This document shows positions 1 through 64,000 of a DNA stretch of 64,000 nucleotides, piece by piece. The DNA lies in the NCBI GenBank assembly GCA_963402885.1, contig OY727098.1:21748717-21812716 (forward strand), given 5' to 3'. Each line of letters begins with the position of its first letter. The stretch's first letter is position 1. Below the pieces are notes generated by a model. It made no database searches. It saw only the letters and a list, made by a program, of their open reading frames with translations, and was not told where the DNA came from. The translations under genes were made by a program, and so were the position numbers. Origin of the DNA: Antedon bifida (taxonomy: Eukaryota; Echinodermata; Crinoidea; Comatulida; Antedonidae).

Positions 1-97
1 TTATTATTGGTGCAGTACGCAGCATCATCACATCGGTCATACTCGCATGTTTCATTTCCAGTACAGTAAACACGAATATGTTCACATTCATTGATAT
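1..97 (-). CDS. Calcium-binding EGF exon, partial at left window edge
   Basis: It begins [18 protein letters not shown] after acceptor AAATTTCATAG and stays open to base 1. The spacing is unusual for a cbEGF, with extra cysteines ([12 protein letters not shown]), so it may be an EGF variant with a longer first loop. The gene continues leftwards. Confidence 0.78.
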   Translation of the reverse strand, partial: MSMNVNIFVFTVLEMKHASMTDVMMLRTAPII

Positions 98-9000: not shown

Positions 9001-9815
9001 ATCAGAAGTTAATTCTTCACATTCCTAAACACATGTTAAATCCTGCTTCGCTGTAAATAACCTGTAGTCACATACGGTACTTATGTTATATGTATTATGT
9101 ATGTCACTGCCTATCCCGTTTTTGTTTATCTCATGTTTTCCATAGTGTAATTTTAATAAAATAATAATAACTAAAAGCTACAAGAAAGCTAAATTTGCAT
9201 ACAAGGTTAGAAAGGGCATTTTTATTATTAATTGCGATCGGTATTTATTCATATTTCTTGTTTGGATTTTATTCATTCTTACATGTGCTTGCAAACTGGA
9301 AAGCATAACTGTCTGTTACGGTTGTGTTTGGTTCAATAACAAGTGTTGTGTCGTTCGGTAGAAGAAAGTCATCAGTAACGTTGTCATTCCAAACACCTAC
9401 AAAATATGATTAATTTCAAAATTGCAGTAACAAATTGTTGGATGAATTCAAATTATTATAGTACTATAATATAACTTGTTTTGTGATGATATTTATGTGA
9501 GTGTACTTCAGTATAACACTAATAATCCCTACGTTTATGGATAATTATAGGGTTCTTCGAAACAAATAAAATACATTAGTAAGCCTACCGTATAAGCCGT
9601 TTGTTTGTCCTTTATAACTGTCAGGAATGGATGCAACTATGTCTAGTGCTGTTTCAACTAACCCAATTGATAGAGAAATACCAGATGACCATGCGGCAAC
9701 AACACGGTTAGCAGTTGAATTACCAGAAGGAAGACTTATCGAGAAAGTGCTATCAGCTTCTGAAACATACGGTTCTACAGAAGAAAAGAAATCAAATACA
9801 TTATCATTAGGCCTA

Positions 9816-9848
<33 letters not shown>

Positions 9849-18800: not shown

Positions 18801-21800
18801 GGGACACCATAGTTACACAGCTTAATAATGTAAATTCTGTTTAACATGTATTATTTTAAAAGGAAATACACTATGTATTTACTAAATATATTTCCCTTGG
18901 TGTAGGCCTGATGTCGTCGAATCACCATCTTAAACTTTCTTCGTGGATCACTGGTTTTTTACTAAAAACTAAGATTGCGTAAGCGCAGATTCGCAGTCAC
19001 CGGTGATGATCAAATTTGCATAAGAAAGAAGTAGACCGACACAACGTTGATACGTTGATTCCACACAAAAGGAATAAACGATCGATTCCTATCTCTTGGA
19101 TTGTGTCAGATGTAATGCTATAATTATTACAAACGAAACAGGTATAGAAAATGTAGGTTACCTGATAAATTCGTTAGTAAACATTTAACTATGAATAAAA
19201 TATACCTGCGATGGTAATGTAGTAAACACAGGATGCATGTCGCCCCAAACTGTCTTGTGCTGTATATGACACGTTGTGTTGGCCGATTAGAAATTTAGTT
19301 TCTTCTGGAATAACATTTACATAAAAGTCACCATAAGCTCCATTGATAGTGGGCTCATCCAATTCAACAATTGCATAGTTTAACCCTACTCCAGTTGGAA
19401 GCGTGACGTCTGCTGGACACTCAATGATAAGTAGCACTAGTAATTTAAAATCAAACATAATGTATTTTGTTATTATTATTATTATTGCTAATTATAAAGT
19501 AATATTTTAACATAACTAAACATGACCAATTCCAAAAATATTTGAGCGTAAAATACTGATTAACTTCTAATTAAATGAGATAGTTACAATTTACACAGGT
19601 AAATACAAATATAAAATCTTATTTACATATTATAGAAATGGTTACTGAAGAATTAACTGTAATAACATATGAAGGTACTTACAAAAGGATGTTGTTGTCG
19701 GAACAGCTACAGTGGATGAACTAATACATTCGAGTACAACGTCAAAACATTCATTTTCAGAACAGCTACCAGGTGAACTAATCGTAACAGTTTTACTAAT
19801 TAGCGTATCATCAAAGCAAACTGCTGATACATTCACAGTCTCGCCAACAGGAACCTCAGCACAAATACGTCCCTTGTCATTAGTCATGTACATGGTCACA
19901 GAATCAGATTTCGAAATACTAAAGTAAAATTGTAGGCACGTTTAATATAGTAATCTAATCAACTTTAATAATCAGTATTATAAAAATAGAAATAGTGCGT
20001 AGGGGAGCTGTAACTTGGTTGTTAATTTGCTTGCCTTCCAATCTCAAGGTATAAGGTTCAATCCGGACATAGTAAAAGTGTTGTAACTCATGACTCTTTC
20101 AACTCCACTCTCTATATTACGCCTTAAAATGAGACTTAGTTTATAAGCACAATACATTATAAAATAGTTTATCCATCTTGTAACTGCCAAGTTGCTCGCT
20201 GTTGGATGCGTATTAAATAAAAAAAAATTTAAATTAAAAACCGGTAAAAAATATAAGTAATACATAAGAACACTTGAAATTTTCTAGTATCTCTAATTAT
20301 TGTGCATTGTAAGCTGTAAATTGGAGGACAATAGTAGAGAGCCACACAAAATGCCATGGATTCTTGTCATTTGATTGGATGATCGTACAGTACATTGAAC
20401 TCCTGCGTCATCATGATTTCGTTCGTTATAATGAGAGTAAAATTTGGTTACTAGAGTACGTGTTTTCGTGAATTTCGTTATATGTGCGTGGTTTATAACT
20501 ACAAAGCGAGAAACCACGCAGGACAAGAGACGGTTGGCTGATCGCATTCGAAAACCAACCAGAAGTGTCCGCCGTCTATAAGTGTTCTGGTACCCATCCA
20601 TACGATTTAGGCATTGCCCAGCCAGTCATTAAAATTAGTATTAAAAAAAAGTGTTTTATATTCGTGTAATAGAACAAATAATTTCATTCAGTGAAAATGT
20701 CTTATATTCACCTCGTGGAATTATTTGTATGGCTACCATTCCACTCATGGAAATTGACTATTTTTTAAAAATATCAGGTCATAATAGCTAGCAATGACAA
20801 CACATCAATATAAAATAGTGTATTTAACACACCTGATTTGTTAATAACGCATCGCGCACAGACCGATCAACGACACACTATGAATAGCATTTATAAACGT
20901 TCTGCCACCAGAGATTGTTTATTTCTGCTATTAACTGTTCTACTCCGCGTCCGAAATTGAATGGTCAAGCTGTCCAACATAATTAAAAAAGGATTAGGCC
21001 TAATTGAAAACAAAATAGAACAGTAAGTTTTGAATTCTTGAAGAGCTTGAAAATATCTCATACAATGAAGCAGTCAATCATTAAAAGCATGAAAATACAT
21101 TCATACCGAACACACAGCAATTACCAACTATCGAAGATGAACATTACAATTTAAGCGAAAAATGACAATAGAAAAAGATAACATAATAAACTAAAATGTC
21201 TTACGATATATTATGTCTTTCAATAGGAATATTACACTGGTCGTCACCACAAGTTTGAATTTGAACACAACCCATTGCATACGGTGTAGTAAATGTTTCT
21301 GGTAATTGTGTTGTTTGTTCCCGACATTGGAGAATAAGAGCAACTTCGCTACAAGTTCCTACAACACAATCACCGGTGGTTTCCGGAGTGACTGTTGCAT
21401 TGGCAATTGATCCATCTTCACATAACGCAGAAACAGTAATTGATTCACCGACCGTAGCAGCAACACATACAGTACCGTTAACATTAGTGGTATACATTTC
21501 AATTATTCCTGATGACTTCTCCAACACGCTAAAACAAAACAGGTAAACAAACAATAGTAAATTTAATAGAAAATAATATCATCAATGAACTTACAACTTC
21601 AACACCTAATTTCTATCAATTATGGAAGAATAACTTTGATTTGTTACCGAAACATATTATTTAAAACTTACCTTATGTTTGTAAAAACAACTGGTTCAAG
21701 ACACTGGTCGTCAGCACAAGTTTGAATATTAACACAACCCATTGCATACGGTGTAGTAAATGTTTCTGGTAATTGTGTTGTTTGTTCCAGACATTGGAGA

Positions 21801-51800: not shown

Positions 51801-54800
51801 ATTATTATAAATATACGATATTGAGGAGTAATTAAATGTATTCTTTTGTTAATATTTCGATTATTTTAAAATTACCTTATGTTTCTGAACATAACAGGTT
51901 CAAGGCACTTTTCATCAACACACGTTTTTATACGAACACAACCCATTGCATACGGTGTAGTAAATGATTCTGGTAATTGTGTTGTTTGTGCCCGACATTG
52001 GAGTATAAGAGCAACATCGCTACAAGTTCCTACTTGACAATCCCCAGTGTTTTCAGGAGTTACTGTTGCATTTGCCATTGATCCATCTTCACATAACGCA
52101 GAAACAGTTACGGATTCACCGAGCGTAGCAGCAACACATACTGTACCGTTTTCATTAGTGGTGTACTTTTCAATTATTCCTGATGAAATTTCCTGCACAC
52201 TAAAATGTAGGTTACAAAACAAAACATTTTTATTTGCAATTTTTTTCAAATACAACTCTATTATTATAACTATACGATAATAAGGAGAAAACCTATGGTT
52301 AATAATGCGATTATTTGAAAATTACCTTATGTTTCTGAACATAACAGGTTCAAGGAACTTTTCATCAACACAAGTTTTTATACGAACACAACCCATTGCA
52401 TACGGTGTAGTAAATGATTCTGGTAATTGTGTTGTTTGTGCCCGACATTGGAGTATAAGAGCAACATCGCTACAAGTTCCTACAACACAATCCCCAGTGT
52501 TTTCGGGAGTTACTGTTGCATTTGCCATTGATCCATCTTCACATAACGCAGAAACAGTTACGGATTCACCGACCGTAGCAGCAACACATACTGTACCGTT
52601 TTCATTAGTGGTGTACTTTTCAATTATTCCTGATGAAATCTCCAGCACACTAAAATGTAGGTTACAAAACAAAATATGTTTTTGCACATTGTTTCAAATA
52701 CAACTCTATTATTATAAATATACGATATTGCGAAGTAATTAAATGTATTCTTTTGTTAATATTTCAATTATTTTAAAATTACCTTATGTTTCTGAACATA
52801 ACTGGTTCAAGACACTTTTCATCAATACAAGTTTTTATACGAACACAACCAATTGCATACGGTGTAGTAAATGATTCTGGTAATTGTGTTGTTTGTGCCC
52901 GACATTGGAGGATAAGAGCAACATCGCTACAAGTTCCAACTTGACAATCACCGGTGCTTTCAGGAGTTACTGTTGCATTTGCCATTGATCCATCTTCACA
53001 TAACGCAGAAACAGTTACGGATTCACCGAGCGTAGCAGCAACACATACTGTACCGTTTTCATTAGTGGTGTACTTTTCAATTATTCCTGATGAAATTTCC
53101 TGCACACTAAAATGTAAGTTACAAAACAAAATATTTTTACTTGCACATTTTTTCTAATGCAACTCTATTATTATAACTATACGATAATAAGGAAAAAACT
53201 TATGGTTAATAATGCGATTATTTGAAAATTACCTTATGTTTCTGAACATAACAGGTTCAAGGCACTTTTCATCAACACAAGTTTTTATACGAACACAACC
53301 CATTGCATACGGTGTAGTAAATGATTCTGGTAATTGTGTTGTTTGTGCCCGACATTGGAGTATAAGAGCAACATCGCTACAAGTTCCTACTTGACAATCC
53401 CCAGTGTTTTCGGGAGTTACTGTTGCATTTGCCATTGATCCATCTTCACATAACGCAGAAACAGTTACGGATTCACCGAGCGTAGCAGCAACACATACTG
53501 TACTGTTTTCATTAGTGGTGTACTTTTCAATTATTCCTGATGAAATCTCTAGCACACTAAAATGTAGGTTACAAAACAAAACATGTTTTTGCACATTGTT
53601 TCAAATACAACTCTATTATTATAAATATACGATATTGCGAAGTAATTAAATGTATTCTTTTGTTAATATTTCGATTATTTTAAAATTACCTTATGTTTCT
53701 GAACATAACTGGTTCAAGACACTTTTCATCAATACAAGTTTTTATACGAACACAACCCATTGCATACGGTGTAGTAAATGATTCTGGTAATTGTGTTGTT
53801 TGTGCCCGACATTGGAGTATAAGAGCAACATCACTACAAGTTCCTACTTGACAATCCCCAGTGTTTTCGGGAGTTACTGTTGCATTTGCCATTGATCCAT
53901 CTTCACATAACGCAGAAACAGTTACGGATTCACCGACCGTAGCAGCAACACATACTGTACCGTTTTCATTAGTGGTGTACTTTTCAATTATTCCTGATGA
54001 AATCTCCAGCACACTAAAATTTAGATTACAAAACAAAACATATGTGTTTGCACATTGTTTCAAATACAACTCTATTATTATAAATATACGATATTGAGGA
54101 GTAATTAAATGTATTCTTTTGTTAATATTTCGATTATTTTAAAATTACCTTATGTTTCTGAACATAACTGGTTCAAAACACTTTTCATCAATACAAGTTT
54201 TTATACGAACACAACCCATTGCATACGGTGTAGTAAATGATTCTGGTAATTGTGTTGTTTGTGCCCGACATTGGAGGATAAGAGCAACATCGCTACAAGT
54301 TCCAAATTGACAATCACCTGTGCTTTCAGGAGTTACTGTTGCATTTGCCATTGATCCATCTTCACATAACGCAGAAACAGTTACGGATTCACCGAGCGTA
54401 GCAGCAACACATACTGTACCGTTTTCATTAGTGGTGTACTTTTCAAGTATTCCTGATGAAATTTCCTGCACACTAAAATGTAGGTTACAAAACAAAACAT
54501 TTTTATTTGCACATTTTTTCAAATACAACTCTATTATTATAACTATACGATAATAAGGAGAAAACTTATGGTTAATAATGCGATTATTTGAAAATTACCT
54601 TATGTTTCTGAACATAACAGGTTCAAGGCACTTTTCATCAACAAACGTTTTTATACGAACACAACCCATTGCATACGGTGTAGTAAATGATTCTGGTAAT
54701 TGTGTTGTTTGTGCCCGACATTGGAGTATAAGAGCAACATCGCTACAAGTTCCTACTTGACAATCCCCAGTGTTTTCAGGAGTTACTGTTGCATTTGCCA

Positions 54801-57800
54801 TTGATCCATCTTCACATAACGCAGAAACAGTTACGGATTCACCGAGCGTAGCAGCAACACATACTGTACCGTTTTCATTAGTGGTGTACTTTTCAATTAT
54901 TCCTGATGAAATTTCCTGCATACTAAAATGTAGGTTACAAAAGCAAAACATTTTTATTTGCAATTTTTTTCAAATACAACTCTATTATTATAACTATACG
55001 ATAATAAGGAGAAAACCTATGGTTAATAATGCGATTATTTGAAAATTACCTTATGTTTCTGAACATAACAGGTTCAAGGCACTTTTCATCAACACAAGTT
55101 TTTATACGAACACAACCCATTGCATACGGTGTAGTAAATGATTCTGGTAATTGTGTTGTTTGTGTCCGACATTGGAGGATAAGAGCAACATCGCTACAAG
55201 TTCCAACTTGACAATCACCGGTGCTTTCAGGAGTTACTGTTGCATTTGCCATTGATCCATCTTCACATAACGCAGAAACAGTTACGGATTCACCGACCGT
55301 AGCAGCAACACATACTGTACCGTTTTCATTAGTAGTGTACTTTTCAATTATTCCTGATGAAATCTCCAGCACACTAAAATGTAGGTTACAAAACAAAATA
55401 TGTTTTTGCACATTGTTTCAAATACAACTCTATTATTATAAATATACGATATTGCGAAGTAATTAAATGTATTCTTTTGTTAATATTTCAATTATTTTAA
55501 AATTACCTTATGTTTCTGAACATAACTGGTTCAAGACATTTTTCATCAATACAAGTTTTTATACGAACACAACCAATTGCATACGGTGTAGTAAATGATT
55601 CTGGTAATTGTGTTGTTTGTGCCCGACATTGGAGGATAAGAGCAACATCGCTACAAGTTCCAACTTGACAATCACCGGTGCTTTCAGGAGTTACTGTTGC
55701 ATTTGCCATTGATCCATCTTCACATAACGCAGAAACAGTTACGGATTCACCGAGCGTAGCAGCAACACATACTGTACCGTTTTCATTAGTGGTGTACTTT
55801 TCAATTATTCCTGATGAAATTTCCTGCACACTAAAATGTAAGTTACAAAACAAAATATTTGTATTTGCACATTTTTTCTAATACAACTCTATTATTATAA
55901 CTATACGATAATAAGGAGAAAACTTATGGTTAATAATGCGATTATTTGAAAATTACCTTATGTTTCTGAACATAACAGGTTCAAGGCACTTTTCATCAAC
56001 ACAAGTTTTTATACGAACACAACCCATTGCATATGGTGTAGTAAATGATTCTGGTAATTGTGTTGTTTGTGCCCGACATTGGAGTATAAGAGCAACATCG
56101 CTACAAGTTCCTACTTGACAATCCCCAGTGTTTTCGGGAGTTACTGTTGCATTTGCCATTGATCCATCTTCACATAAGGCAGAAACAGTTACGGATTCAC
56201 CGAGCGTAGCAGCAACACATACTGTACTGTTTTCATTAGTGGTGTACTTTTCAATTATTCCTGATGAAATCTCTAGCACACTAAAATGTAGGTTACAAAA
56301 CAAAACATGTTTTTGCACATTGTTTCAAATACAACTCTATTATTATAAATATACGATATTGCGAAGTAATTAAATGTATTCTTTTGTTAATATTTCAATT
56401 ATTTTAAAATTACCTTATGTTTCTGAACATAACTGGTTCAAGACACTTTTCATCAATACAAGTTTTTATACGAACACAACCCATTGCATACGGTGTAGTA
56501 AATGATTCAGGTAATTGTGTTGTTTGTACCAGACATTGGAGGATAAGAGCAACACTGCTACAAGTTCCTACTTGACAATCCCCAGTGCTTTCCGGAGTTA
56601 CTGTTGCATTTGCCATTGATCCATCTTCACAGAACGCAGAAACAGTTACGGATTCACCGACCGTAGCAGCAACACATACTGTACCGTTTTCATTAGTGGT
56701 GTACTTTTCAATTATTCCTGATGAAATCTCCAGCACACTAAAATGGAGGTTCCAAAATAAAACATATTTAATTGTATTATTTCAAATACAACTCTATTAT
56801 TATAAATATACGATATGTAGAAAAAGTAAAATATGTTTTTTTGTTATTAATTCGATTATTTGAAAATTACCTTATGTTTCTGAACATAACAGGTTCAAGA
56901 CACTTTCCATCAACACAAGTTTTTATACGAACACAACCCATTGCATACGGTGTAGTAAATGATTCTGGTAATTGTGTTGTTTGTGCCCGACATTGGAGTA
57001 TAAGAGCAACATCGCTACAAGTTCCTACTTGACAATCACCGTTGCTTTCCGGAGTTACTGTTGCATTTGCCATTAATCCATCTTCACATAACGCAGAAAC
57101 AGTTACGGATTCACCGAGCGTAGCAGCAACACATACTGTACCGTTTTCATTAGTGGTGTACTTTTCAATTATTCCTGATGAAATCTCCAGCACACTAAAA
57201 TGTAGGTTACAAAACAAAACATTTTTATTTGCAATTTTTTTGAAATACAAATCTATTATTATAACTATACGATAATAAGGAGAAAACCTATGGTTAATAA
57301 TGCGATTATTTGAAAATTACCTTATGTTTCTGAACATAACTGGTTCAAGGCACTTTTCATCAACACAAGTTTTTATACGAACACAACCCATTGCATACGG
57401 TGTAGTAAATGATTCTGGTAATTGTGTTGTTTGTGCCCGACATTGGAGGATAAGAGCAACACTGCTACAAGTTCCTACTTGACAATCCCCAGTGCTTTCC
57501 GGAGTTACTGTTGCATTTGCCATTGATCCATCTTCACATAACGCAGAAACAGTTACGGATTCACCGACCGTAGCAGCAACACAAACTGTACCGTTTTCAT
57601 TAGTGGTGTACTTTTCAATTATTCCTGATGAAATCTCCAGCACACTAAAATGTAGGTAGCACACTAAAATGTAGGTTACACAATAAAACATGTTTAATTG
57701 TATTGTTCAAATACAACTCTATTATTATAAATATACGATATTGAGAACGAGTAAAATATGTTTTTTTGTTAATAATTCGATTATTTGAAAATTACCTTAT

Positions 57801-60800
57801 GTTTCTGAACATAACTGGTTCAAGGCACTTTTCGTCACCACAAGTTTTTATACGAACACAACCCATTGCATACGGTGTAGTAAATGATTCAGGTAATTGT
57901 GTTGTTTGTACCCGACATTGGAGGATAAGAGCAACACTGCTACAAGTTCCTACTTGACAATCCCCAGTGCTTTCCGGAGTTACTGTTGCATTTGCCATTG
58001 ATCCATCTTCACATAACGCAGAAACAGTTACGGATTCACCGACCGTAGTAGCAACACATACTGTACCGTTTTCATTAGTGGTGTACTTTTCAATTATTCC
58101 TGATGAAATCTCCAGCACACTAAAATGTAGGTTACACAATAAAACATGTTTAATTGTATTGTTTCAAATACAACTCTATTATTATAAATATACGATATTG
58201 AGAAAAAGTAAAATATGTTTTTTTGTTAATAATTCGATTATTTGAAAATTACCTTATGTTTCTGAACATAACTGGTTCAAGGCACTTTTCGTCACCACAA
58301 GTTTTTATACGAACACAACCCATTGCATACGGTGTAGTAAATGATTCTGGTAATTGTGTTGTTTGTACCCGACATTGGAGGATAAGAGCAACACTGCTAC
58401 AAGTTCCTACTTGACAATCGCCAGTGCTTTCCGGAGTTACTGTTGCATTTGCCATTGATCCATCTTCACATAACGCAGAAACAGTTACGGATTCACCGAG
58501 CGTAGCAGCAACACATACTGTACCGTTTTCATTAGTGGTGTACTTTTCAATTATTCCTGATGAAATCTCCAGCACACTAAAATGTAGGTTACAAAATAAA
58601 ACATTTTTAATTGTATTGTTTCAAATACAACTCTATTATTAAAAATATACGATATTGAGAACGAGTAAAATATGTTTTTTTGTTAATAATTCGATTATTT
58701 GAAAATTACCTTATGTTTCTGAACATAACTGGTTCAAGGCACTTTTCGTCACCACAAGTTTGTATACGAACACAACCCATTGCATACGGTGTAGTAAATG
58801 ATTCTGGTAATTGTGTTGTTTGTACCCGACATTGGAGGATAAGAGCAACACTGCTACAAGTTCCTACAACACAATCCCCAGTGTTTTCGGGAGTTACTGT
58901 TGCATTTGCCATTGATCCATCTTCACATAACGCAGAAACAGTTACGGATTCACCGACCGTAGCAGCAACACATACTGTACCGTTTTCATTAGTAGTGTAC
59001 TTTTCAATTATTCCTGATGAAATCTCCAGCACACTAAAATGTAGGTTACAAAACAAAATATGTTTTTGCACATTGTTTCAAATACAACTCTATTATTATA
59101 AATATACGATATTGCGAAGTAATTAAATGTATTCTTTTGTTAATATTTCAATTATTTTAAAATTACCTTATGTTTCTGAACATAACTGGTTCAAGACACT
59201 TTTCATCAATACAAGTTTTTATACGAACACAACCAATTGCATACGGTGTAGTAAATGATTCTGGTAATTGTGTTGTTTGTGCCCGACATTGGAGGATAAG
59301 AGCAACATCGCTACAAGTTCCAACTTGACAATCACCGGTGCTTTCAGGAGTTACTGTTGCATTTGCCATTGATCCATCTTCACATAACGCAGAAACAGTT
59401 ACGGATTCACCGACCGTAGCAGCAACACATACTGTACCGTTTTCATTAGTAGTGTACTTTTCAATTATTCCTGATGAAATCTCCAGCACACTAAAATGTA
59501 AGTTACAAAACAAAATATTTGTATTTGCACATTTTTTCTAATACAACTCTATTATTATAACTATACGATAATAAGGAGAAAACTTATGGTTAATAATGCG
59601 ATTATTTGAAAATTACCTTATGTTTCTGAACATAACAGGTTCAAGGCACTTTTCATCAACACAAGTTTTTATACGAACACAACCCATTGCATATGGTGTA
59701 GTAAATGATTCTGGTAATTGTGTTGTTTGTGCCCGACATTGGAGTATAAGAGCAACATCGCTACAAGTTCCTACTTGACAATCCCCAGTGTTTTCGGGAG
59801 TTACTGTTGCATTTGCCATTGATCCATCTTCACATAAGGCAGAAACAGTTACGGATTCACCGAGCGTAGCAGCAACACATACTGTACTGTTTTCATTAGT
59901 GGTGTACTTTTCAATTATTCCTGATGAAATCTCTAGCACACTAAAATGTAGGTTACAAAACAAAACATGTTTTTGCACATTGTTTCAAATACAACTCTAT
60001 TATTATAAATATACGATATTGCGAAGTAATTAAATGTATTCTTTTGTTAATATTTCAATTATTTTAAAATTACCTTATGTTTCTGAACATAACTGGTTCA
60101 AGACACTTTTCATCAATACAAGTTTTTATACGAACACAACCCATTGCATACGGTGTAGTAAATGATTCTGGTAATTGTGTTGTTTGTGCCCGACATTGGA
60201 GGATAAGAGCAACATCGCTACAAGTTCCTACTTGACAATCCCCAGTGTTTTCGGGAGTTACTGTTGCATTTGCCATTGATCCATCTTCACATAACGCAGA
60301 AACAGTTACGGATTCACCGAGCGTAGCAGCAACACATACTGTACCGTTTTCATTAGTGGTGTACTTTTCAATTATTCCTGATGAAATCTCCAGCACACTA
60401 AAATGTAGGTTACAAAACAAAACACGTTTTTGCACATTGTTTCAATTACAACTCTATTATTATAAATATACGATATTGCGAAGTAATTAAATGTATTCTT
60501 TTGTTAATATTTCAATTATTTTAAAATTACCTTATGTTTCTGAACATAACTGGTTCAAGACACTTTTCATCAATACAAGTTTTTATACGAACACAACCCA
60601 TTGCATACGGTGTAGTAAATGATTCAGGTAATTGTGTTGTTTGTACCAGACATTGGAGGATAAGAGCAACACTGCTACAAGTTCCTACTTGACAATCCCC
60701 AGTGCTTTCCGGAGTTACTGTTGCATTTGCCATTGATCCATCTTCACAGAACGCAGAAACAGTTACGGATTCACCGACCGTAGCAGCAACACATACTGTA

Positions 60801-63800
60801 CCGTTTTCATTAGTGGTGTACTTTTCAATTATTCCTGATGAAATCTCCAGCACACTAAAATGGAGGTTCCAAAATAAAACATATTTAATTGTATTATTTC
60901 AAATACAACTCTATTATTATAAATATACGATATGTAGAAAAAGTAAAATATGTTTTTTTGTTATTAATTCGATTATTTGAAAATTACCTTATGTTTCTGA
61001 ACATAACAGGTTCAAGACACTTTCCATCAACACAAGTTTTTATACGAACACAACCCATTGCATACGGTGTAGTAAATGATTCTGGTAATTGTGTTGTTTG
61101 TGCCCGACATTGGAGTATAAGAGCAACATCGCTACAAGTTCCTACTTGACAATCACCGTTGCTTTCCGGAGTTACTGTTGCATTTGCCATTAATCCATCT
61201 TCACATAACGCAGAAACAGTTACGGATTCACCGAGCGTAGCAGCAACACATACTGTACCGTTTTCATTAGTGGTGTACTTTTCAATTATTCCTGATGAAA
61301 TCCCCAGCACACTAAAATGTAGGTTACAAAACAAAACATTTTTATTTGCAATTTTTTTGAAATACAAATCTATTATTATAACTATACGATAATAAGGAGA
61401 AAACCTATGGTTAATAATGCGATTATTTGAAAATTACCTTATGTTTCTGAACATAACTGGTTCAAGGCACTTTTCATCAACACAAGTTTTTATACGAACA
61501 CAACCCATTGCATACGGTGTAGTAAATGATTCTGGTAATTGTGTTGTTTGTGCCCGACATTGGAGGATAAGAGCAACACTGCTACAAGTTCCTACTTGAC
61601 AATCCCCAGTGCTTTCCGGAGTTACTGTTGCATTTGCCATTGATCCATCTTCACATAACGCAGAAACAGTTACGGATTCACCGACCGTAGCAGCAACACA
61701 AACTGTACCGTTTTCATTAGTGGTGTACTTTTCAATTATTCCTGATGAAATCTCCAGCACACTAAAATGTAGGTTACACAATAAAACATGTTTAATTGTA
61801 TTGTTCAAATACAACTCTATTATTATAAATATACGATATTGAGAACGAGTAAAATATGTTTTTTTGTTAATAATTCGATTATTTGAAAATTACCTTATGT
61901 TTCTGAACATAACTGGTTCAAGGCACTTTTCGTCACCACAAGTTTTTATACGAACACAACCCATTGCATACGGTGTAGTAAATGATTCAGGTAATTGTGT
62001 TGTTTGTACCCGACATTGGAGGATAAGAGCAACACTGCTACAAGTTCCTACTTGACAATCCCCAGTGCTTTCCGGAGTTACTGTTGCATTTGCCATTGAT
62101 CCATCTTCACATAACGCAGAAACAGTTACGGATTCACCGACCGTAGTAGCAACACATACTGTACCGTTTTCATTAGTGGTGTACTTTTCAATTATTCCTG
62201 ATGAAATCTCCAGCACACTAAAATGTAGGTTACACAATAAAACATTTTTAATTGTATTGTTTCAAATACAACTCTATTATTATAAATATACGATATTGAG
62301 AAAAAGTAAAATATGTTTTTTTGTTAATAATTCGATTATTTGAAAATTACCTTATGTTTCTGAACATAACTGGTTCAAGGCACTTTTCGTCACCACAAGT
62401 TTTTATACGAACACAACCCATTGCATACGGTGTAGTAAATGATTCTGGTAATTGTGTTGTTTGTACCCGACATTGGAGGATAAGAGCAACACTGCTACAA
62501 GTTCCTACTTGACAATCGCCAGTGCTTTCCGGAGTTACTGTTGCATTTGCCATTGATCCATCTTCACATAACGCAGAAACAGTTACGGATTCACCGAGCG
62601 TAGCAGCAACACATACTGTACCGTTTTCATTAGTGGTGTACTTTTCAATTATTCCTGATGAAATCTCCAGCACACTAAAATGTAGGTTACAAAATAAAAC
62701 ATTTTTAATTGTATTGTTTCAAATACAACTCTATTATTAAAAATATACGATATTGAGAACGAGTAAAATATGTTTTTTTGTTAATAATTCGATTATTTGA
62801 AAATTACCTTATGTTTCTGAACATAACTGGTTCAAGGCACTTTTCGTCACCACAAGTTTGTATACGAACACAACCCATTGCATACGGTGTAGTAAATGAT
62901 TCTGGTAATTGTGTTGTTTGTACCCGACATTGGAGGATAAGAGCAACACTGCTACAAGTTCCTACTTGACAATCCCCAGTGCTTTCCGGAGTTACTGTTG
63001 CATTTGCCATTGATCCATCTTCACATAACGCAGAAACAGTTACGGATTCACCGACCGTAGCAGCAACACATACTGTACCGTTTTCATTAGTGGTGTACTT
63101 TTCAATTATTCCTGATGAAATCTCCAGCACACTAAAATGTAGGTTACAAAATAAAACATGTTTAATTGTATTGTTTCAAATACAACTCTATCATTATAAA
63201 TATACGATATTGAGAAAAAGTAAAATATGTTTTTTTTGTTAATAATTCGATTATTTGAAAATTACCTTATGTTTCTGAATATAACTGGTTCAAGGCACTT
63301 TTCGTCACCACAAGTTTTTATACGAACACAACCCATTGCATACGGTGTATTAAATGATTCTGGTAATTGTGTTGTTTGTACCCGACATTGGAGGATAAGA
63401 GCAACACTGCTACACGTTCCTACTTGACAATCCCCAGTGCTTTCCGGAGTGACTGTTGCATTTGCCATTGATCCATCTTCACATAACGCAGAAACAGTTA
63501 CGGATTCACCGATCGTAGCAGCAACACATACTGTACCATTTTCATTAGTGGTGTACTTTTCAATTATTCCTGATGAAATCTCCAGTACACTAAAATGTAG
63601 GTTACAAAATAAAACATTTTAAATTGTATTGTTTCAAATACAACTCTATTATTATAAATATACGATATTGAGAACGATTAAAATATGTTTTTTTGTTAAT
63701 AATTCGATTATTTGAAAATTACCTTATGTTTCTGAACATAACTGGTTCAAGGCACTTTTCGTCACCACAACTTTTTATACGAACACAACCCATTGCATAC

Positions 63801-64000
63801 GGTGTAGTAAATGATTCCGGTAATTGTGTTGTTTGTACCCGACATTGGAGGATAAGAGCAACACTGCTACAAGTTCCTACTTGACAATCCCCAGTGCTTT
63901 CCGGAGTTACTGTTGCATTTGCCATTGATCCATCTTCACATAACGCAGAAACAGATACGGATTCACCGACCGTAGCAGCAACACATGCTGTACCGTTTTC
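1..64000 (-). CDS. Giant multi-exon mucin-like/extracellular matrix glycoprotein gene (partial at both ends)
   Basis: I assemble 125 exons on the minus strand: 91 repeat exons followed by 34 tail exons, about 35.1 kb of coding sequence or roughly 11,700 residues. Every exon-exon join keeps the reading frame: phase 2 throughout the arrays, a 2-to-1 converter exon, phase 1 through HYR, LDLa, sushi and EGF, then 1-0, 0-0, 0-0, 0-1 in NIDO and 1-0, 0-1 in VWD. Known for the families: NIDO-AMOP-VWD-EGF is the MUC4-type core. Inferred: a secreted or membrane-tethered glycoprotein used in a mucous, adhesive or matrix layer. No signal peptide, transmembrane segment, promoter or polyA site is visible, so both termini lie outside. 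Introns over 300 bases in which I recognise nothing are 1266-1583, 1713-2175, 2299-3013, 5800-6143, 6325-6942, 8120-8665, 8927-9282, 10526-10884, 12354-12692, 13168-13696, 13889-14222, 17392-17912 and 18165-19205. A split into two genes is possible but is not suggested by the phases. Confidence 0.85.
359..715. repeat. Diverged direct repeat inside an intron
   Basis: Two copies of about 170-190 bp lie head to tail, at about 359-527 and 545-715. Shared words are GGATCAATATG(T/A)GTTTTTA, GCCTTCAT and ATTGACCATTATGAAAT(A/C)AATG. Nothing coding is seen. It is probably a decayed mobile or satellite-like element and accounts for most of the 98-793 intron. Confidence 0.6.
794..913 (-). CDS. Calcium-binding EGF exon
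   Basis: [17 protein letters not shown] and [18 protein letters not shown]. Full cbEGF. The plus-strand open frame over the same bases is a shadow. 120 nt, phase 1-1. Confidence 0.88.
1143..1265 (-). CDS. Calcium-binding EGF exon
   Basis: [16 protein letters not shown] and [20 protein letters not shown]. Full cbEGF. 123 nt, phase 1-1. Confidence 0.88.
1584..1712 (-). CDS. EGF-like exon without the calcium-binding start
   Basis: [16 protein letters not shown] and [19 protein letters not shown]. Six cysteines are present, but D-x-(D/N)-E is replaced by IQGAE, so calcium binding is doubtful. The acceptor TTCACATAG is followed by CTATACAAGGG; an alternative AG lies 7-8 bases into the exon. 129 nt, phase 1-1. 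Confidence 0.78.
2176..2298 (-). CDS. Calcium-binding EGF exon
   Basis: [16 protein letters not shown] and [20 protein letters not shown]. Six cysteines; the usual G-Y near the end is N-Y. The donor GTAAGT is consensus. 123 nt, phase 1-1. Confidence 0.86.
3014..3133 (-). CDS. Calcium-binding EGF exon
   Basis: [17 protein letters not shown] and [17 protein letters not shown]. Full cbEGF. It is separated from the preceding exon by only 102 bases, the shortest intron in the tail. 120 nt, phase 1-1. Confidence 0.89.
3236..3358 (-). CDS. Calcium-binding EGF exon
   Basis: [18 protein letters not shown] and [17 protein letters not shown]. Full cbEGF with six cysteines. 123 nt, phase 1-1. Confidence 0.88.
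3475..3725. mobile_element. tRNA-like SINE fragment(s) in an intron
   Basis: A-box-like TGGCGTAACGG (3640-3650) and B-box GGTTCGAATC (3681-3690) stand about 40 bases apart on the plus strand, followed by a T/A-rich tail. About 170 bases upstream, the minus strand has another B-box-like word (GGTTCGAGAC, near 3500). The tRNA arms do not pair well enough for a functional tRNA, so I read this as SINE remnants, possibly two in opposite orientation. The rest of intron 3359-4206 shows nothing. Confidence 0.4.
4207..4446 (-). CDS. Exon encoding two calcium-binding EGF domains
   Basis: Two complete cbEGF modules sit in one exon without an intron between them: [18 protein letters not shown]...GWTGNGSFC, then [16 protein letters not shown]...GYVGDGSTC. 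At 240 nt it is twice the 120-nt single-module exons nearby, so the intervening intron was probably lost. Phase 1-1. Confidence 0.9.
4636..4758 (-). CDS. Calcium-binding EGF exon
   Basis: [18 protein letters not shown] and [18 protein letters not shown]. Full six-cysteine cbEGF. 123 nt, phase 1-1. Confidence 0.89.
4958..5080 (-). CDS. Calcium-binding EGF exon
   Basis: [18 protein letters not shown] and [18 protein letters not shown]. Full six-cysteine cbEGF with the N-T-E-G-S-F hydroxylation-type segment. 123 nt, phase 1-1. Confidence 0.88.
5366..5432. repeat. ACAG/ACCG tetranucleotide microsatellite
   Basis: Runs of ACAG and ACCG units lie in intron 5081-5658. A perfect short palindrome (AGTCGCGT/ACGCGACT, 5451-5468) follows. 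The open frame that crosses it on the minus strand is only the repeat translated. Confidence 0.8.
5659..5799 (-). CDS. Calcium-binding EGF exon, with a long first loop
   Basis: [46 protein letters not shown]. Six cysteines, with a first loop longer than in its neighbours. 141 nt, phase 1-1. Confidence 0.87.
6144..6324 (-). CDS. EGF-like compound exon
   Basis: It starts [20 protein letters not shown], completing the EGF begun in the previous exon (C-x-C-P-x-x-W-x-G-x-x-C), then a second cysteine-rich module with [13 protein letters not shown] and [15 protein letters not shown]. It changes phase 0 to 1, which sets the frame of the cbEGF chain. 181 nt. Confidence 0.83.
6943..7127 (-). CDS. Cadherin-like module, second exon, running into EGF
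   Basis: It completes DTG with [38 protein letters not shown], then ENGGVC. F-x-W-x-P...V-x-(D)-x-x-G-x-x-x-x-x-x-x-x-V completes the cadherin-like fold, and [11 protein letters not shown] begins an EGF-like segment. Donor GTTAGT; phase 1 to 0, 185 nt. Confidence 0.82.
7183..7220. repeat. Short tandem duplication in an intron
   Basis: CGAGTCTCTGTTGAGG occurs twice in tandem. The same intron (7128-7933) also has a short (TA)n run with a poly-T at about 7558-7587. Nothing else is recognised in it. Confidence 0.75.
7934..8119 (-). CDS. Cadherin-like/Ig-like module, first exon
   Basis: [18 protein letters not shown], then [20 protein letters not shown] and GAGIDTG. A-x-D-P-E-(D/G)-x-x-V-x-Y-x-L is a cadherin-like strand motif, seen after VWD in coral and other invertebrate mucin-like proteins. 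186 nt, phase 1-1. Confidence 0.8.
8666..8926 (-). CDS. VWD C-terminal/C8-like exon
   Basis: After [15 protein letters not shown] comes FKPVFFEDL and then [21 protein letters not shown]-x-x-x-x-x-C-x-F-D-x-x-x-T-x-D is the conserved end of this region in MUC4-like and SUSD2-like proteins. An acidic Asn-rich linker ([10 protein letters not shown]) closes the exon. 261 nt, phase 1-1. Confidence 0.85.
9283..9396 (-). CDS. VWD domain, fourth exon
   Basis: It continues GLYG with [18 protein letters not shown], the GLLG-x-(F/W)N-x-x-x-x-DDF-x-x-P-x-G word of VWD. Three sequons are visible (NVT, NDT, NTT). 114 nt, phase 1-1. Confidence 0.88.
9589..9774 (-). CDS. VWD domain, third exon
   Basis: [55 protein letters not shown]. 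The P-x-x-Y-x-x-x-T-x-GL-x-G segment is the conserved end of the VWD core. 186 nt, phase 1-1. Confidence 0.86.
9815..9849. repeat. (ACTT)n microsatellite
   Basis: About eight ACTT units. A second short ACTT run lies near 10241-10254 in the same intron (9775-10437). The intervening 390 bases could be an inserted element bounded by the two runs, but I see no terminal repeats. Confidence 0.75.
10438..10525 (-). CDS. VWD domain, second exon
   Basis: A short 88-nt exon encoding [18 protein letters not shown] and [11 protein letters not shown], one strand pair of the VWD sandwich with two sequons (NAS, NKT). It restores phase 1 (0 to 1). Confidence 0.83.
10885..11072 (-). CDS. VWD domain, first exon, with GDPH motif
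   Basis: [36 protein letters not shown]. The GDPH-x-x-T-x-DG-x-x-Y-x-F-x-G-x-G-x-Y motif is the VWD start. In MUC4 and other mucins, GDPH is the site of autocatalytic Asp-Pro cleavage, so the protein may be cut here into two subunits (inference from family). Phase 1 to 0, 188 nt. Confidence 0.93.
11160..11236. repeat. Hairpin-forming inverted repeat in an intron
   Basis: AAGTTTGTTTCGTCTTTA and its exact reverse complement face each other around an AT-rich centre that itself pairs (TTTGTAAA/TTTACAAA). This could be a very small MITE. The rest of intron 11073-11597 shows nothing. Confidence 0.75.
11598..11717 (-). CDS. AMOP domain, last exon
   Basis: [41 protein letters not shown]-x(7)-C-x-x-Y-x-x-x-RP-x-x-x-C-x-x-Y-x-PP is the classical AMOP end, leading directly into VWD as in MUC4. 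120 nt, phase 1-1. Confidence 0.9.
11889..11925. repeat. Polypyrimidine (T/C) tract
   Basis: A run of T with scattered C lies inside intron 11718-12176, about 250 bases from the nearest exon, so it is not obviously part of a splice site. Nothing else is recognised in that intron. Confidence 0.6.
12177..12353 (-). CDS. AMOP domain, middle exon
   Basis: [20 protein letters not shown], then [17 protein letters not shown]. The W-x-x-x-x-x-x-CCY-x-x-x-G-x-L arrangement is the AMOP centre. AMOP is a cysteine-rich extracellular domain found next to NIDO and VWD in MUC4, SUSD2 and ISM-type proteins. 177 nt, phase 1-1. Confidence 0.86.
12693..13167 (-). CDS. NIDO C-terminal part, linker and start of AMOP
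   Basis: It opens [20 protein letters not shown], the TFQ-x-x-L-x-TDG-x-x-S-F NIDO end, and goes on to a WFFRLE strand. It then enters AMOP with CMDWRN...LSGFGVCPC, where the VCPC word is typical of AMOP. A basic RRGRASR stretch follows and could be a proteolytic site (inference). At 475 nt it is the longest exon here. Phase 0 to 1. Confidence 0.87.
13697..13888 (-). CDS. NIDO domain, third exon
   Basis: It encodes [20 protein letters not shown], then [19 protein letters not shown] and ENNDGK. W-x-x-V-x-T-W-x-x-x-P is the conserved strand before the (N/T)TFQ segment in NIDO. 192 nt, phase 0-0. Confidence 0.87.
14223..14387 (-). CDS. NIDO domain, second exon
   Basis: It starts [12 protein letters not shown] and ends [20 protein letters not shown] plus GEVYYN. 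The IAPFWAD-x-D word is the core NIDO motif. 165 nt, phase 0-0. Confidence 0.88.
14674..14828 (-). CDS. NIDO domain, lead exon
   Basis: It encodes [20 protein letters not shown] and ends [13 protein letters not shown]. The FFPWG...GD word matches the lead-in of nidogen-type NIDO domains (FYPFG-x-x-x-GD). Phase 1 to 0, 155 nt, with donor GTAAGT. Confidence 0.82.
15060..15618 (+). mobile_element. Probable retrotransposon 3' tail
   Basis: The stretch ending TTGTAATTGGCTGTATTTTT, then AATATACCGAATAAATAAA and an (AAAT)n tail, looks like the 3' end of a non-LTR retrotransposon or SINE. The left limit is a guess; no reverse-transcriptase frame is present. It accounts for most of intron 14829-15668. 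Confidence 0.35.
15669..15791 (-). CDS. Calcium-binding EGF exon (upstream of NIDO, second)
   Basis: [18 protein letters not shown] and [18 protein letters not shown] are visible, with an extra residue spacing in the first loop. This is the last EGF before the NIDO domain. 123 nt, phase 1-1. Confidence 0.88.
16018..16140 (-). CDS. Calcium-binding EGF exon (upstream of NIDO, first)
   Basis: [18 protein letters not shown] at the start and [16 protein letters not shown] at the end give six cysteines. D-I-D-E-C and the F/Y-x-C centre are the cbEGF signature. 123 nt, phase 1-1. Confidence 0.88.
16284..16457 (-). CDS. Sushi (CCP)-like domain exon
   Basis: [54 protein letters not shown]: four cysteines with the C-x-x-GY-x-L centre and a C...P.C end. 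It follows the other sushi exon directly in the transcript, as sushi pairs usually do. 174 nt, phase 1-1. Confidence 0.82.
16614..16790 (-). CDS. Sushi (CCP)-like domain exon
   Basis: Four main cysteines: FCKW..., [33 protein letters not shown]. The NITYSC-x-x-GY word is the sushi centre. The terminal W-x-x-x-x-x-C is replaced by FQFPSC. The donor is the weak GTTGGT. 177 nt, phase 1-1. Confidence 0.78.
17042..17164 (-). CDS. Degenerate LDL-receptor class A-like exon
   Basis: [20 protein letters not shown] and [18 protein letters not shown] keep six or seven cysteines and the acidic end, but the calcium motif is altered (YNSAEEEE in place of D-x-S-D-E). An extra Cys (ECYVC) is present. 123 nt, phase 1-1. 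Confidence 0.78.
17275..17391 (-). CDS. LDL-receptor class A domain exon
   Basis: It encodes [20 protein letters not shown] followed by [20 protein letters not shown]. Six cysteines and the C-DG-x-x-DC-x-D-x-x-DE-x-x-x-x-C calcium cage are all present. 117 nt, phase 1-1. Confidence 0.9.
17913..18164 (-). CDS. HYR domain exon
   Basis: A clear HYR module: [10 protein letters not shown] at the start, [17 protein letters not shown] in the middle, [19 protein letters not shown] and FTIEITG at the end. HYR domains are immunoglobulin-like and common in sushi- and EGF-containing adhesion proteins. 252 nt, phase 1-1. Confidence 0.88.
19206..19436 (-). CDS. HYR-like domain exon
   Basis: It encodes a hyalin-repeat type module: [15 protein letters not shown] near the start, a beta-rich middle, [19 protein letters not shown] near the end and YYITIAG to finish. 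ECP at the start and (A/G)-x-C-x-(F/Y) at the end are the usual HYR landmarks. Phase 1-1. The acceptor (AAATTACTAG) has a poor pyrimidine tract, so the exact start is slightly uncertain. Confidence 0.8.
19463..19486. repeat. (ATT)n microsatellite
   Basis: A short run of TTA/ATT units in the intron just upstream of the HYR-like exon at 19206-19436. Confidence 0.7.
19683..19918 (-). CDS. Divergent, shortened array-domain exon; phase converter
   Basis: The protein ([20 protein letters not shown] ... [13 protein letters not shown] ... [15 protein letters not shown]) aligns with residues 1 to about 69 of the repeat unit. It keeps the VGE-VSA-C core and five cysteines, but the last third is replaced by a short Ser/Thr/Val/Pro stretch ([13 protein letters not shown]). 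The exon is 236 nt, starts in phase 2 and ends in phase 1. It is therefore the adaptor that lets the phase-2 array join the phase-1 tail. It is far more diverged than any array copy and may be close to the founding unit. Confidence 0.85.
19990..20228 (+). mobile_element. tRNA-derived SINE-like element
   Basis: A pol III B-box-like word (GGTTCAATCC, 20055-20064) follows a tRNA-like head (GTAGGGGAGCTGTAACTTGG and CTTGCCTTCCAATCTCAAGG). A body ending GCCAAGTTGCTCGCTGTTGG and an A-rich tail near 20215-20228 come after it. This head, body and A-tail order is that of a tRNA-derived SINE. It lies in the intron between the first array-proximal exon and the converter exon. Confidence 0.55.
20640..20760. 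mobile_element. Degenerate copy of the MITE-like hairpin
   Basis: The imperfect inverted pair GTAATAGAACAAATAATTTC / TTATTTGTATGGCTACCAT resembles the arms of the hairpin at 48891-49055, with the centre missing. Upstream bases 20355-20385 (ATTCTTGTCATTTGATTGGA) also resemble the terminal repeat of the 48168 element, so the same element pair may have inserted here and decayed. Confidence 0.4.
21205..48121 (-). CDS. Array A: 58 tandem exons of the same 108-residue 8-Cys domain
   Basis: Exon low ends, each 324 nt: 21205, 21672, 22139, 22606, 23072, 23539, 24006, 24473, 24939, 25406, 25873, 26340, 26807, 27274, 27740, 28207, 28673, 29139, 29605, 30072, 30539, 31006, 31473, 31940, 32407, 32874, 33341, 33808, 34274, 34740, 35207, 35673, 36139, 36606, 37072, 37539, 38006, 38472, 38930, 39397, 39864, 40331, 40797, 41264, 41731, 42198, 42665, 43132, 43599, 44065, 44532, 44999, 45465, 45932, 46398, 46865, 47331, 47798. 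The period is 466-467 nt, with an intron of about 143 nt. The acceptor is TTTTGTTTTAG and the donor ATAAG|GTAAGT. Within the unit, Cys are at about 22, 37, 55, 60, 69, 88, 94 and 99; sequons are at 18 (NGT), 44 (NAT) and 107 (NI|S across the junction). A Thr/Pro-rich stretch lies near 73-83. I saw no stop or frameshift in any copy. I do not recognise the domain; the alternating hydrophobic, disulphide-rich pattern suggests a small beta-rich extracellular fold (inference). Confidence 0.92.
24939..25262 (-). CDS. Array A exon lacking the seventh cysteine (Trp)
   Basis: This copy reads QTWADDQC where its neighbours read QTCADDQC, a single TGT-to-TGG change, leaving seven cysteines. It also carries TTDVNG and TPGTTG variants. 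The rest of the exon and its splice sites are intact. Confidence 0.85.
47798..48121 (-). CDS. First array A exon in transcript order
   Basis: This exon follows the transposon-filled intron. It begins SVWEKSSG, with Trp at the position that is Leu in other copies. It has the A-type acceptor (TTTGTTTAG) and donor. The codon shared with the last B exon rebuilds Ser (AG plus C), so the A/B join is in frame. Confidence 0.85.
48168..48889. mobile_element. Non-autonomous inverted-repeat DNA transposon
   Basis: The left end, starting TTATATAACACCTAAATA, is matched by the reverse complement of the right end (TTATATAACATCTAAATA), and the match continues through ATTCCTGTCA for about 36 bp with few mismatches. 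The inside has no transposase frame. It includes a perfect 22-bp palindrome near 48241-48262 and a stretch rich in TAGGC words at 48600-48690. The superfamily cannot be named from this. Confidence 0.65.
48891..49055. mobile_element. MITE-like long hairpin
   Basis: The arms at 48891-48967 and 48981-49055 are near-perfect reverse complements (ACAAATAATGAATGTTT... against ...AAACATTCATTATTTG) around a loop of about 13 bases. There is no coding capacity. A degraded relative, with the same ACAAATAAT and TTCACCTC words in inverted order, lies at about 20640-20760. Confidence 0.75.
49151..49474 (-). CDS. Last array B exon in transcript order
   Basis: The coding sequence is B-type ([17 protein letters not shown]), but the intron that follows has the A-type core. 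Its donor is GTACAT rather than GTAATT or GTAAGT, the weakest donor I saw in the arrays. It lies at the edge of the mobile-element insertion. Confidence 0.82.
49151..64000 (-). CDS. Array B: 33 tandem exons of a 108-residue 8-Cys domain (last copy cut by window edge)
   Basis: Exon low ends, each exon 324 nt: 49151, 49601, 50051, 50508, 50967, 51417, 51876, 52326, 52783, 53233, 53690, 54149, 54599, 55050, 55507, 55957, 56414, 56871, 57321, 57796, 58253, 58710, 59167, 59617, 60074, 60531, 60988, 61438, 61894, 62351, 62808, 63266 and 63723 (partial, to 64000). Introns are about 126-150 nt. On the minus strand exons start after a TTTTAG-type acceptor with T-GTG/GTT and end ATA-AG before GTAATT, so both flanking introns are phase 2. 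Copies typically begin [19 protein letters not shown] and carry QVGTC and GCVRIKTC. B differs from A by ISS for [11 protein letters not shown] for [13 protein letters not shown] for SIANA and VMFRNI for VIFTNI. Introns are of a few subtypes that do not align with A introns. These are the most 5' exons seen, and the array continues past the right edge. Confidence 0.9.
52326..52649 (-). CDS. Array B exon lacking the eighth cysteine (Phe)
   Basis: The usual DEKCLEP reads DEKFLEP here (TGC to TTC). This copy also has an A-like VVGTC in place of the QVGTC normal for array B. Frame and splice sites are intact. Confidence 0.85.
54599..54922 (-). CDS. Array B exon lacking the seventh cysteine (Phe)
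   Basis: The usual IKTCVDEKC reads IKTFVDEKC (TGT to TTT). The copy is otherwise typical, with the QEISSG start and normal splice junctions. Confidence 0.85.
57321..57644 (-). CDS. Array B exon with a duplicated upstream 3' splice site
   Basis: Next to this exon a 19-bp piece holding the acceptor (CTACATTTTAG and the first exon bases) is repeated in tandem at 57645-57683. Two near-identical acceptors therefore sit 19 nt apart. Only the exon-proximal one keeps the array frame, because the distal one would add 19 nt to the exon. The matching unit in the duplicated block (61438) lacks the extra copy, so the event is later than the block duplication or was lost there. Confidence 0.85.
63723..64000 (-). 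CDS. Array B exon, partial at right window edge
   Basis: The donor side (ATAAG|GTAATT) is present at the low end and the exon stays open to base 64000, 278 of the expected 324 nt. It shows that the array and the gene extend rightwards beyond the window, so 91 is a minimum copy number. Confidence 0.9.

Follow-up and report, generated by a model that had tools for sequence, protein, structure and literature searches.

The 64,000-nucleotide stretch analysed here (the window; C11:21748717–21812716 of the Antedon bifida genome of 315.6 Mb in 27 contigs) harbors a long tandem array of nearly identical open exons, and it raises the question of what kind of protein these exons belong to and how such an array could have grown. 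The answer proposed is that the window probably contains the middle portion of a giant gene, on the minus strand, for a MUC4-like transmembrane mucin of this feather star. The exons and their phases, the domains, the near-identity of the copies and the relatives of the gene were observed directly.

An Array of 92 Symmetric Exons

A tblastn search with one unit over the window and the adjoining 5′ locus detected 92 copies of the array unit, all of them on the minus strand; one distant copy was also matched when the window and the 5′ loci were searched in this way. Within the window itself, 90 copies are complete and one is cut by its end, which bears out the count of at least 91 copies (90 complete and one cut) given in a preliminary description of this DNA. 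The cut copy lies at 63725–64048, and the 92nd, which is the first copy of the array, lies just beyond the window at 64182–64505 (extended coordinates), the array ending at 64505. The assembly contains no N across the array region. Each of the 92 exons is 324 nt long with a donor GT at constant distance, begins with C or T following AG and ends before GT with AG (n = 88), AC (n = 3) or TC (n = 1), which corresponds to phase 2-2. No stop codon was present inside any of the 92 exons and all 91 inter-unit introns were GT..AG, in agreement with the earlier statement that all copies are open, with AG/GT sites and identical phase. The introns measure 126–151 nt in 90 cases (nine lengths) and 1,029 nt in one. 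All eight cysteines (positions 22, 37, 55, 60, 69, 88, 94, and 99 of the unit) were found in 89 of the 92 units, the seventh being missing in two and the eighth in one, and every unit carries two N-glycosylation sequons (184 in total). The earlier estimate of about 9,800 residues of extracellular eight-cysteine repeat encoded by a symmetric exon was likewise supported, the figure being about 9,900 with 92 units. As the 92 head-to-tail copies show 96–97% mean nucleotide identity within a type, a chance origin is excluded.

The array consists of 58 exons of type A and 34 of type B, with B on the 5′ side. The type-B sub-array (49151–64000, minus strand) contributes 32 complete exons and one cut exon to the window (34 with the 5′ locus) at a period of mostly 450–459 bp, and the type-A sub-array (21205–48121, minus strand) comprises 58 complete exons at a period of mostly 466–467 bp. 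The two are separated by the 1,029-nt intron (48122–49150, minus strand), which houses an element (48168–48889, minus strand) with 34-nt inverted ends (48168–48201/48856–48889) that are 91% complementary and, beside it, a 43-nt hairpin (48917–49032). The element and the hairpin are likely a non-autonomous transposon insertion marking the B/A border. One divergent copy flanks the array on each side, at 64790–65254 (with an LDLa module) and at 19645–19941.

The Eight-Cysteine Domain Straddles the Exon Junction

Alignment of 14 versions of the domain, drawn from this gene, its relatives and a protein of Antedon mediterranea (P0002, 3,860 aa), revealed eight cysteine columns, of which six are invariant and the other two almost invariant. 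Each domain spans an exon junction, with C1-x5-C2-x4-C3 closing one exon and C4–C8 opening the next. The exon preceding the LDLa-unit exon (65814–66008) finishes with C1–C3 and the closing exon (19645–19941) has C4–C8 alone; with these two ends, the 92 array exons and the flanking pieces can be read as 94 whole domains. The equation of one exon with one domain was rejected on the same ground, the exon on the FAM171 side already ending with C1–C3 and the closing exon having only C4–C8. Thus, the symmetric eight-cysteine exon of the preliminary description was retained, but not as a domain, since the domain runs across the junction. The first domain, as aligned, is without both C4 and C6, and this joint absence, a single case, gives a hint that C4 and C6 may pair as a disulfide. 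The inter-domain linker has 18 residues with 28% Thr+Ser. The LDLa module of the LDLa-unit exon (Pfam E 1e-9) occupies this linker, and in the relatives within the genome the Thr-rich mucin stretch begins in the same linker.

Profile searches with the unit, as had been suggested, returned no known family at cut-off. With one array unit, no Pfam family reached its curated cut-off (best PLCC, 16.1 vs. 24.2 bits), and with the 14 aligned domain versions none did either (best E 0.0076). A PDB sequence search with one unit gave no match, and a PDB profile search to E 10 gave a single one, the transthyretin-like pucM, at a non-significant E of 0.87. Structure prediction, also suggested earlier, was run and yielded models that were unusable: AlphaFold reached a mean pLDDT of 45.9 with P0001 (an A. 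mediterranea protein of two units) plus window units (30 rows) and of 39.7 with P0001 and P0003 (a second A. mediterranea protein) plus units (6 rows). Both models consisted of strand and loop throughout, yet no fold is claimed from them; Foldseek and VIA searches with the first model (mean pLDDT 45.9) gave unspecific matches only. A sandwich of the transthyretin-like or Ig-like type can be named as a lead and not as a result. The likeness to the transthyretin-like/carboxypeptidase-regulatory-like beta-sandwich lies in a shared stretch around D..C..P....V.....T...G.v.v aligned with pucM, whereas the array domain has eight cysteines, the match has an E of 0.87 and the models are unreliable. The earlier suggestion that the domain may be undescribed holds insofar as it has no match at Pfam cut-off and one unit has no PDB sequence match; it is not confined to this array, as relatives occur at five other loci of the genome and in A. 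mediterranea. The eight-cysteine domain may hence be regarded as a candidate new protein domain.

MUC4-Type Domains 3′ of the Array

P0003, a predicted protein of 2,516 aa, starts within the last array unit and continues through HYR, NIDO, VWD and EGFs to a Thr-rich part. Mapping of its minus-strand matches starting past residue 98 placed residues 177–2514 in 37 ordered blocks on the window and the locus 3′ of it (L035), 33 of them at 81–100% identity and four, which cover two exons or the Thr-rich part, at 65–68%. The splice borders of the 3′ exons were set by a junction script guided by P0003, with poor junctions and approximate limits at 1, 3–5, and 40. The features described below all lie on the minus strand.

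The divergent closing exon, with its C4–C8 half domain, was matched at 19683–19918 (E 3.9e-11; P0003; phase 2-1 by eye, donor approximate). It is followed by two HYR domains within P0003 blocks, at 19206–19437 (Pfam E 3.7e-7) and 17912–18164 (Pfam E 4.3e-18), both with approximate exon limits, and by a Cys-rich stretch, LDLa-like by eye, at 17037–17165, which is 98% identical to P0003 block 377–419. Just ahead of that block, at residues 340–376 of P0003, Pfam gave an LDLa match below cut-off, which was not located in the window. A Sushi/CCP exon and a second CCP-like exon (16284–16800; Pfam Sushi E 7.7e-6 for the first, no match for the second) and two EGF exons (15669–16140; Pfam EGF_CA E 2.4e-6 for the second) are likewise covered by P0003 blocks, as is the region 12693–14828, in which a pre-NIDO exon is followed by NIDO across three exons, the last also starting an AMOP-like region. 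NIDO was matched by Pfam on the window exons with E 5.2e-11 and 43.3 bits against a cut-off of 25, together with another exon match below cut-off (E 5.5e-5), and at residues 666–873 of P0003 with 90.1 bits. The AMOP-like exons (11598–12353) remain under the Pfam cut-off of 25 bits, with scores of 18.4 and 13.4 bits on two exons; the former belongs to 12160–12372 (E 0.0025), and 11575–11778 gave no match.

The VWD region (9283–11072) begins with WVFGDPH, in which the MUC4 motif GDPH is in frame; Pfam VWD passed narrowly on its first exon (E 9.5e-5, 23.2 bits vs. cut-off 22.9). The MUC4-type C8-3 domain (PF23263) was found at 8666–8926 with E 4.8e-13 and 48.6 bits against a cut-off of 25, and its exon aligns to P0003 at 88%. 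AMOP, VWD, and C8-3 were not listed for P0003 by Pfam at E 0.01. Two exons at 6937–8119 that match P0003 blocks and have no Pfam match were labelled by eye as a cadherin/Ig-like beta region, and an EGF array (1–6324; Pfam EGF_CA, P0003 blocks) runs on 3′ past the window into L035. The MUC4-type domains are thus in order and all on one strand. The preliminary description had left the protein unnamed; for the gene this no longer applies, as it is MUC4-like by C8-3_MUC4, NIDO, and the GDPH within VWD.

Beyond the window, L035:655–5304 (minus strand) is an open Thr-rich stretch of 1,549 residues (28% Thr) in which a 66-bp unit recurs 63.7 times, giving about 64 repeats of 22 residues, and is apparently an exon of the same gene as the array. 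SEA-like pieces in L035 were recognized by likeness to P0002, in which SEA scored 21.1 bits against a cut-off of 26.4; no Pfam SEA match was obtained in L035. After them come an EGF and then a hydrophobic segment with KRR, located at L040:7482–7832 with a 21-residue mean hydropathy of 3.16. This putative transmembrane segment would be spliced to the array gene. The gene is estimated, as a sum of parts with some exons tentative, at ∼85 kb and about 14,400 codons.

Matrix proteins also carry NIDO, sushi, HYR, and EGF_CA modules, and P0003 has 18 EGF_CA stretches, as would suit a secreted matrix or basement-membrane protein of the SNED1/nidogen kind rather than a mucin. Such an identity is nevertheless unlikely in view of the MUC4-type C8-3, the VWD with GDPH, the Thr-rich tandem repeats, the SEA-like parts and the hydrophobic segment followed by KRR, which argue for the MUC4-like mucin.

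Exons 5′ of the Array

On the 5′ side, the LDLa-unit exon is preceded by FAM171-like exons and further exons homologous to P0002. The pre-repeat exons match the C-terminal third (profile positions 169–249 of 254) of the N-terminal domain of FAM171A1/A2/B (PF10577). They differ from FAM171 proteins in that the match in this gene, obtained on a manually joined piece, is below cut-off (29.5 vs. 31.2 bits) and in that the eight-cysteine domain comes after it; in P0002 the same domain scored 36.1 bits, above the cut-off of 31.2. An exon-by-exon search of this genome for FAM171 gave no match, a result that carries no weight in itself. A candidate signal peptide was recognized by eye at 72709–72825, and the order of the N-terminal exons was likewise read from the sequence. 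In P0002, 7 CUB, 16 LDLa, and 6 trypsin stretches are joined to an architecture of FAM171, eight-cysteine unit, Thr-rich, SEA-like, EGF, and transmembrane parts; it is either a protease-mucin fusion or an annotation join.

Comparison With MUC4

In the parts of the source available, the repeat domain, NIDO, and AMOP of human MUC4 are assigned to the alpha subunit and the EGF domains and tail to the beta subunit, and cleavage is proposed at GDPH within VWD (PMC8660890). The Antedon gene shares with MUC4 and the cnidarian MUC4-like proteins the Thr-rich tandem repeats, NIDO, VWD with GDPH, C8-3, EGF, and a putative transmembrane segment, together with AMOP-like exons that score below cut-off. SEA can occur in sea-anemone MUC4-like proteins, according to the portion consulted of PMC9080433. 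The Antedon gene differs from MUC4 in that its main extension is the 92-exon Cys-rich array with N-glycosylation sequons, in having a FAM171/LDLa N-terminus, HYR, CCP, and a large EGF array, and in the position of the Thr-rich exon, which follows the VWD-EGF part, the eight-cysteine array taking the place before NIDO.

Counterparts in Antedon mediterranea

P0001 (219 aa) corresponds to two array units, with 90% identity over 66% of the query. The A. mediterranea counterparts are separate short models (219 and 2,516 aa) and not a single giant protein, and a search aimed at proteins of roughly 5,500–17,500 aa gave no such match among 26 candidates; the gene in this species may be split by annotation or truly split. 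In protein searches bound by length and shared words, in which other crinoids and echinoderms may be missed, the eight-cysteine unit was found only in P0001, P0002, and P0003 among the scored candidates sharing most words. The remaining 15 of the 17 matches of one search all carry LDLa and were taken as matching through it.

The phase-2 borders on both sides of all array exons, together with flanks that meet them, would keep any choice of exons in frame, as in a Dscam-like choice of alternative cassettes or large-scale skipping that leaves one or few units in the mature protein. Units within a type are, on average, 95% identical in protein, and hence almost no diversity would be gained; moreover, P0001 joins two units and P0003 joins the last unit to the closing exon, both being predicted proteins. 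Cassette use is therefore very unlikely, and the MUC4-like gene would join the exons in one transcript.

Relatives Elsewhere in the Genome

Searching the genome with the unit gave 109 matches at E ≤ 0.001, a threshold at which more distant copies may be missed: the 92 array units, the closing exon, 12 at C11:21602–21610 kb and four singles (C11:21559 kb, C11:21682 kb, C13:4883 kb, and C13:4957 kb). In the fetched pieces, an LDLa-unit exon adjoins at all five of these other loci and a FAM171-like exon with ‘YWVxxxPHLSFW’ at four. A Thr-rich run extends past the closing unit at four of the five (short at C11:21559 kb), and the fifth, C11:21602–21610 kb, has 11 symmetric array exons of 321–342 nt and a closing exon. 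This relative resembles the window gene in its equal neighbouring exons and in possessing its own array of a symmetric exon; it differs in having 11 exons that vary between 321 and 342 nt from splice site to splice site and are 35–50% identical to the window unit. One relative, in L034 (C13:4952000–4961999), has at least three middle units whose linkers contain short Thr-rich runs, and may represent an intermediate between a domain array and a mucin stretch.

All four C11 genes, the window gene included, are followed downstream by NIDO and C8-3 exons, and no such exons lie near the C13 genes. The C13 relatives, with FAM171-like exon, LDLa-unit, and Thr-rich exon, have no NIDO or C8-3 match nearby; the N-terminal part can thus occur apart from a MUC4 tail, which counts against the MUC4-like reading. 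Over the whole genome, counted exon by exon, at least 26 MUC4-type C8-3 and 42 NIDO matches were obtained, which points to a large MUC4-like family in this crinoid, with several members clustered (C1, C8, C10, and C11). At C1:12.75–13.03 Mb and C8:5.37/5.44 Mb, C8-3 matches (on C1 also NIDO) occur as pairs of places that score equally, C1:12747326 and 12926206 being one example. This pattern points either to large duplications of recent date or to haplotypes that were not collapsed.

A tree was built from 26 selected unit pieces, among them 8 of the 92 window units and 4 of the 11 from the array of the relative; 13 of its 23 inner branches lack resolution. The window array forms one group (91/97) and three pieces of the 11-exon array form another (97/99), and P0001 falls within type A. 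The closing exons were not grouped together (3 changes), and the first of the 11 exons did not cluster with the rest of its array. Most simply, the window array and the 11-exon array would have grown independently.

Divergence and Growth of the Sub-arrays

In nucleotide sequence, exons were on average 96.1% identical among B units, 97.2% among A units, and 86.5% between the two types; for introns the corresponding values were 88.7%, 95.1%, and 55%. Exon length is invariant, whereas intron length varies. Against the two consensus exons, 163 distinct point variants included no nonsense change where 7.1 were expected; the Poisson probability of zero is about 0.001 by our own arithmetic. The dN/dS was 0.31 for B, 0.37 for A–B, and 0.61 for A. 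Synonymous changes made up 34 of 74 variants in B and 26 of 89 in A, against 24% expected without selection. The synonymous share is clearly raised in B and hardly in A, so that sub-array A is either weakly constrained or carries young variants.

Assembly inflation, or a decayed and untranslated tandem array, would fit the eleven sets of units with identical exons and the weak constraint in A, but it is extremely unlikely given 49 distinct exon sequences of 58 in A and 29 of 34 in B, the absence of N from the assembly here, zero stops and a constant exon length in 92 copies against nine short-intron lengths, and the presence of array units in a second Antedon species. A non-coding satellite was also rejected, by the open frames, the exon/intron contrast and the second species.

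Units identical across exon and intron recur at fixed lags (7/16, 37/42, 67/71, and 68/72). The alignment of units 5–12 with units 14–21 has 53 gap columns and agrees at 3,531 of 3,621 bases, and three A blocks at lag 4 or 5 are about 98% identical; these multi-unit block identities exceed the array average just slightly. The simplest reading is that the array grew through unequal crossing-over of multi-unit blocks. Since the symmetric exon comprises C4–C8 of one domain and C1–C3 of the next, such events would gain or lose whole domains with frame and fold undamaged, and both sub-arrays would most simply have grown in this way. The units of P0001 are 90–94% identical to type A and 78–82% to type B over aligned units (86% for the last unit), and since P0001 is closer to A than to B, the A/B split looks older than the separation of the two Antedon species.

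A Proposed Tethered and Possibly Releasable Surface Rod

From N to C terminus, the protein would comprise a signal peptide, a FAM171-like module, and 94 tandem eight-cysteine domains with an LDLa insert after the first; after the array, two HYR domains, a Cys-rich LDLa-like stretch, CCP, two EGFs, NIDO, an AMOP-like region, VWD with GDPH, C8-3, and the EGF array; and finally the Thr-rich mucin exon, SEA-like parts, EGF, a transmembrane segment, and a tail. The array would act as a beads-on-string extension, disulfide-stiffened and N-glycosylated, raising the N-terminal module far above the epidermis. If the protein is cut at GDPH, which has been proposed for MUC4, the array would end up on a releasable alpha-like subunit. 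We infer from the sequence that the product is an N-glycosylated rod of great length at the cell surface, which is tethered and might be released at GDPH; by our own estimate (∼94 domains of some 4 nm each, plus linkers), the array would be some hundreds of nanometres long and shorter than a micrometre, excluding the Thr-rich part. The outcome could be a mucus coat or tall glycocalyx that acts as a barrier, lubricates, or captures particles. A mucus or glycocalyx role would fit filter feeding; crinoids are described as microphagous filter feeders in the available part of PMC10647474, where mucus has a single mention, as a sign of infection.

No publication on this gene was found in the literature, judged by titles and the openings of abstracts, and in the accessible part of a review of the echinoderm extracellular matrix both uses of ‘mucin’ refer to dystroglycan (PMC10381214). 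We tentatively consider it possible that crinoids have evolved another way of extending a mucin. Within a single gene family, the linker that follows an undescribed, N-glycosylated eight-cysteine domain would be lengthened either by an unfolded Thr-rich repeat within one exon or through amplification of a symmetric exon into dozens of folded domains (92 exons here), the window gene encoding a copy-number-variable, near-micrometre rod of ∼94 domains, tethered or releasable. A tethered mucin-like protein would then owe its length to folded, disulfide-bonded repeats, through one symmetric exon amplified 92-fold, while its relatives use Thr-rich repeats at the equivalent place. The locus offers a natural system for the concerted evolution of coding exons, in which exon and intron, and A and B, can be compared within one gene. 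It further contributes a candidate new domain, and its product is likely to be a major protein of the crinoid surface.
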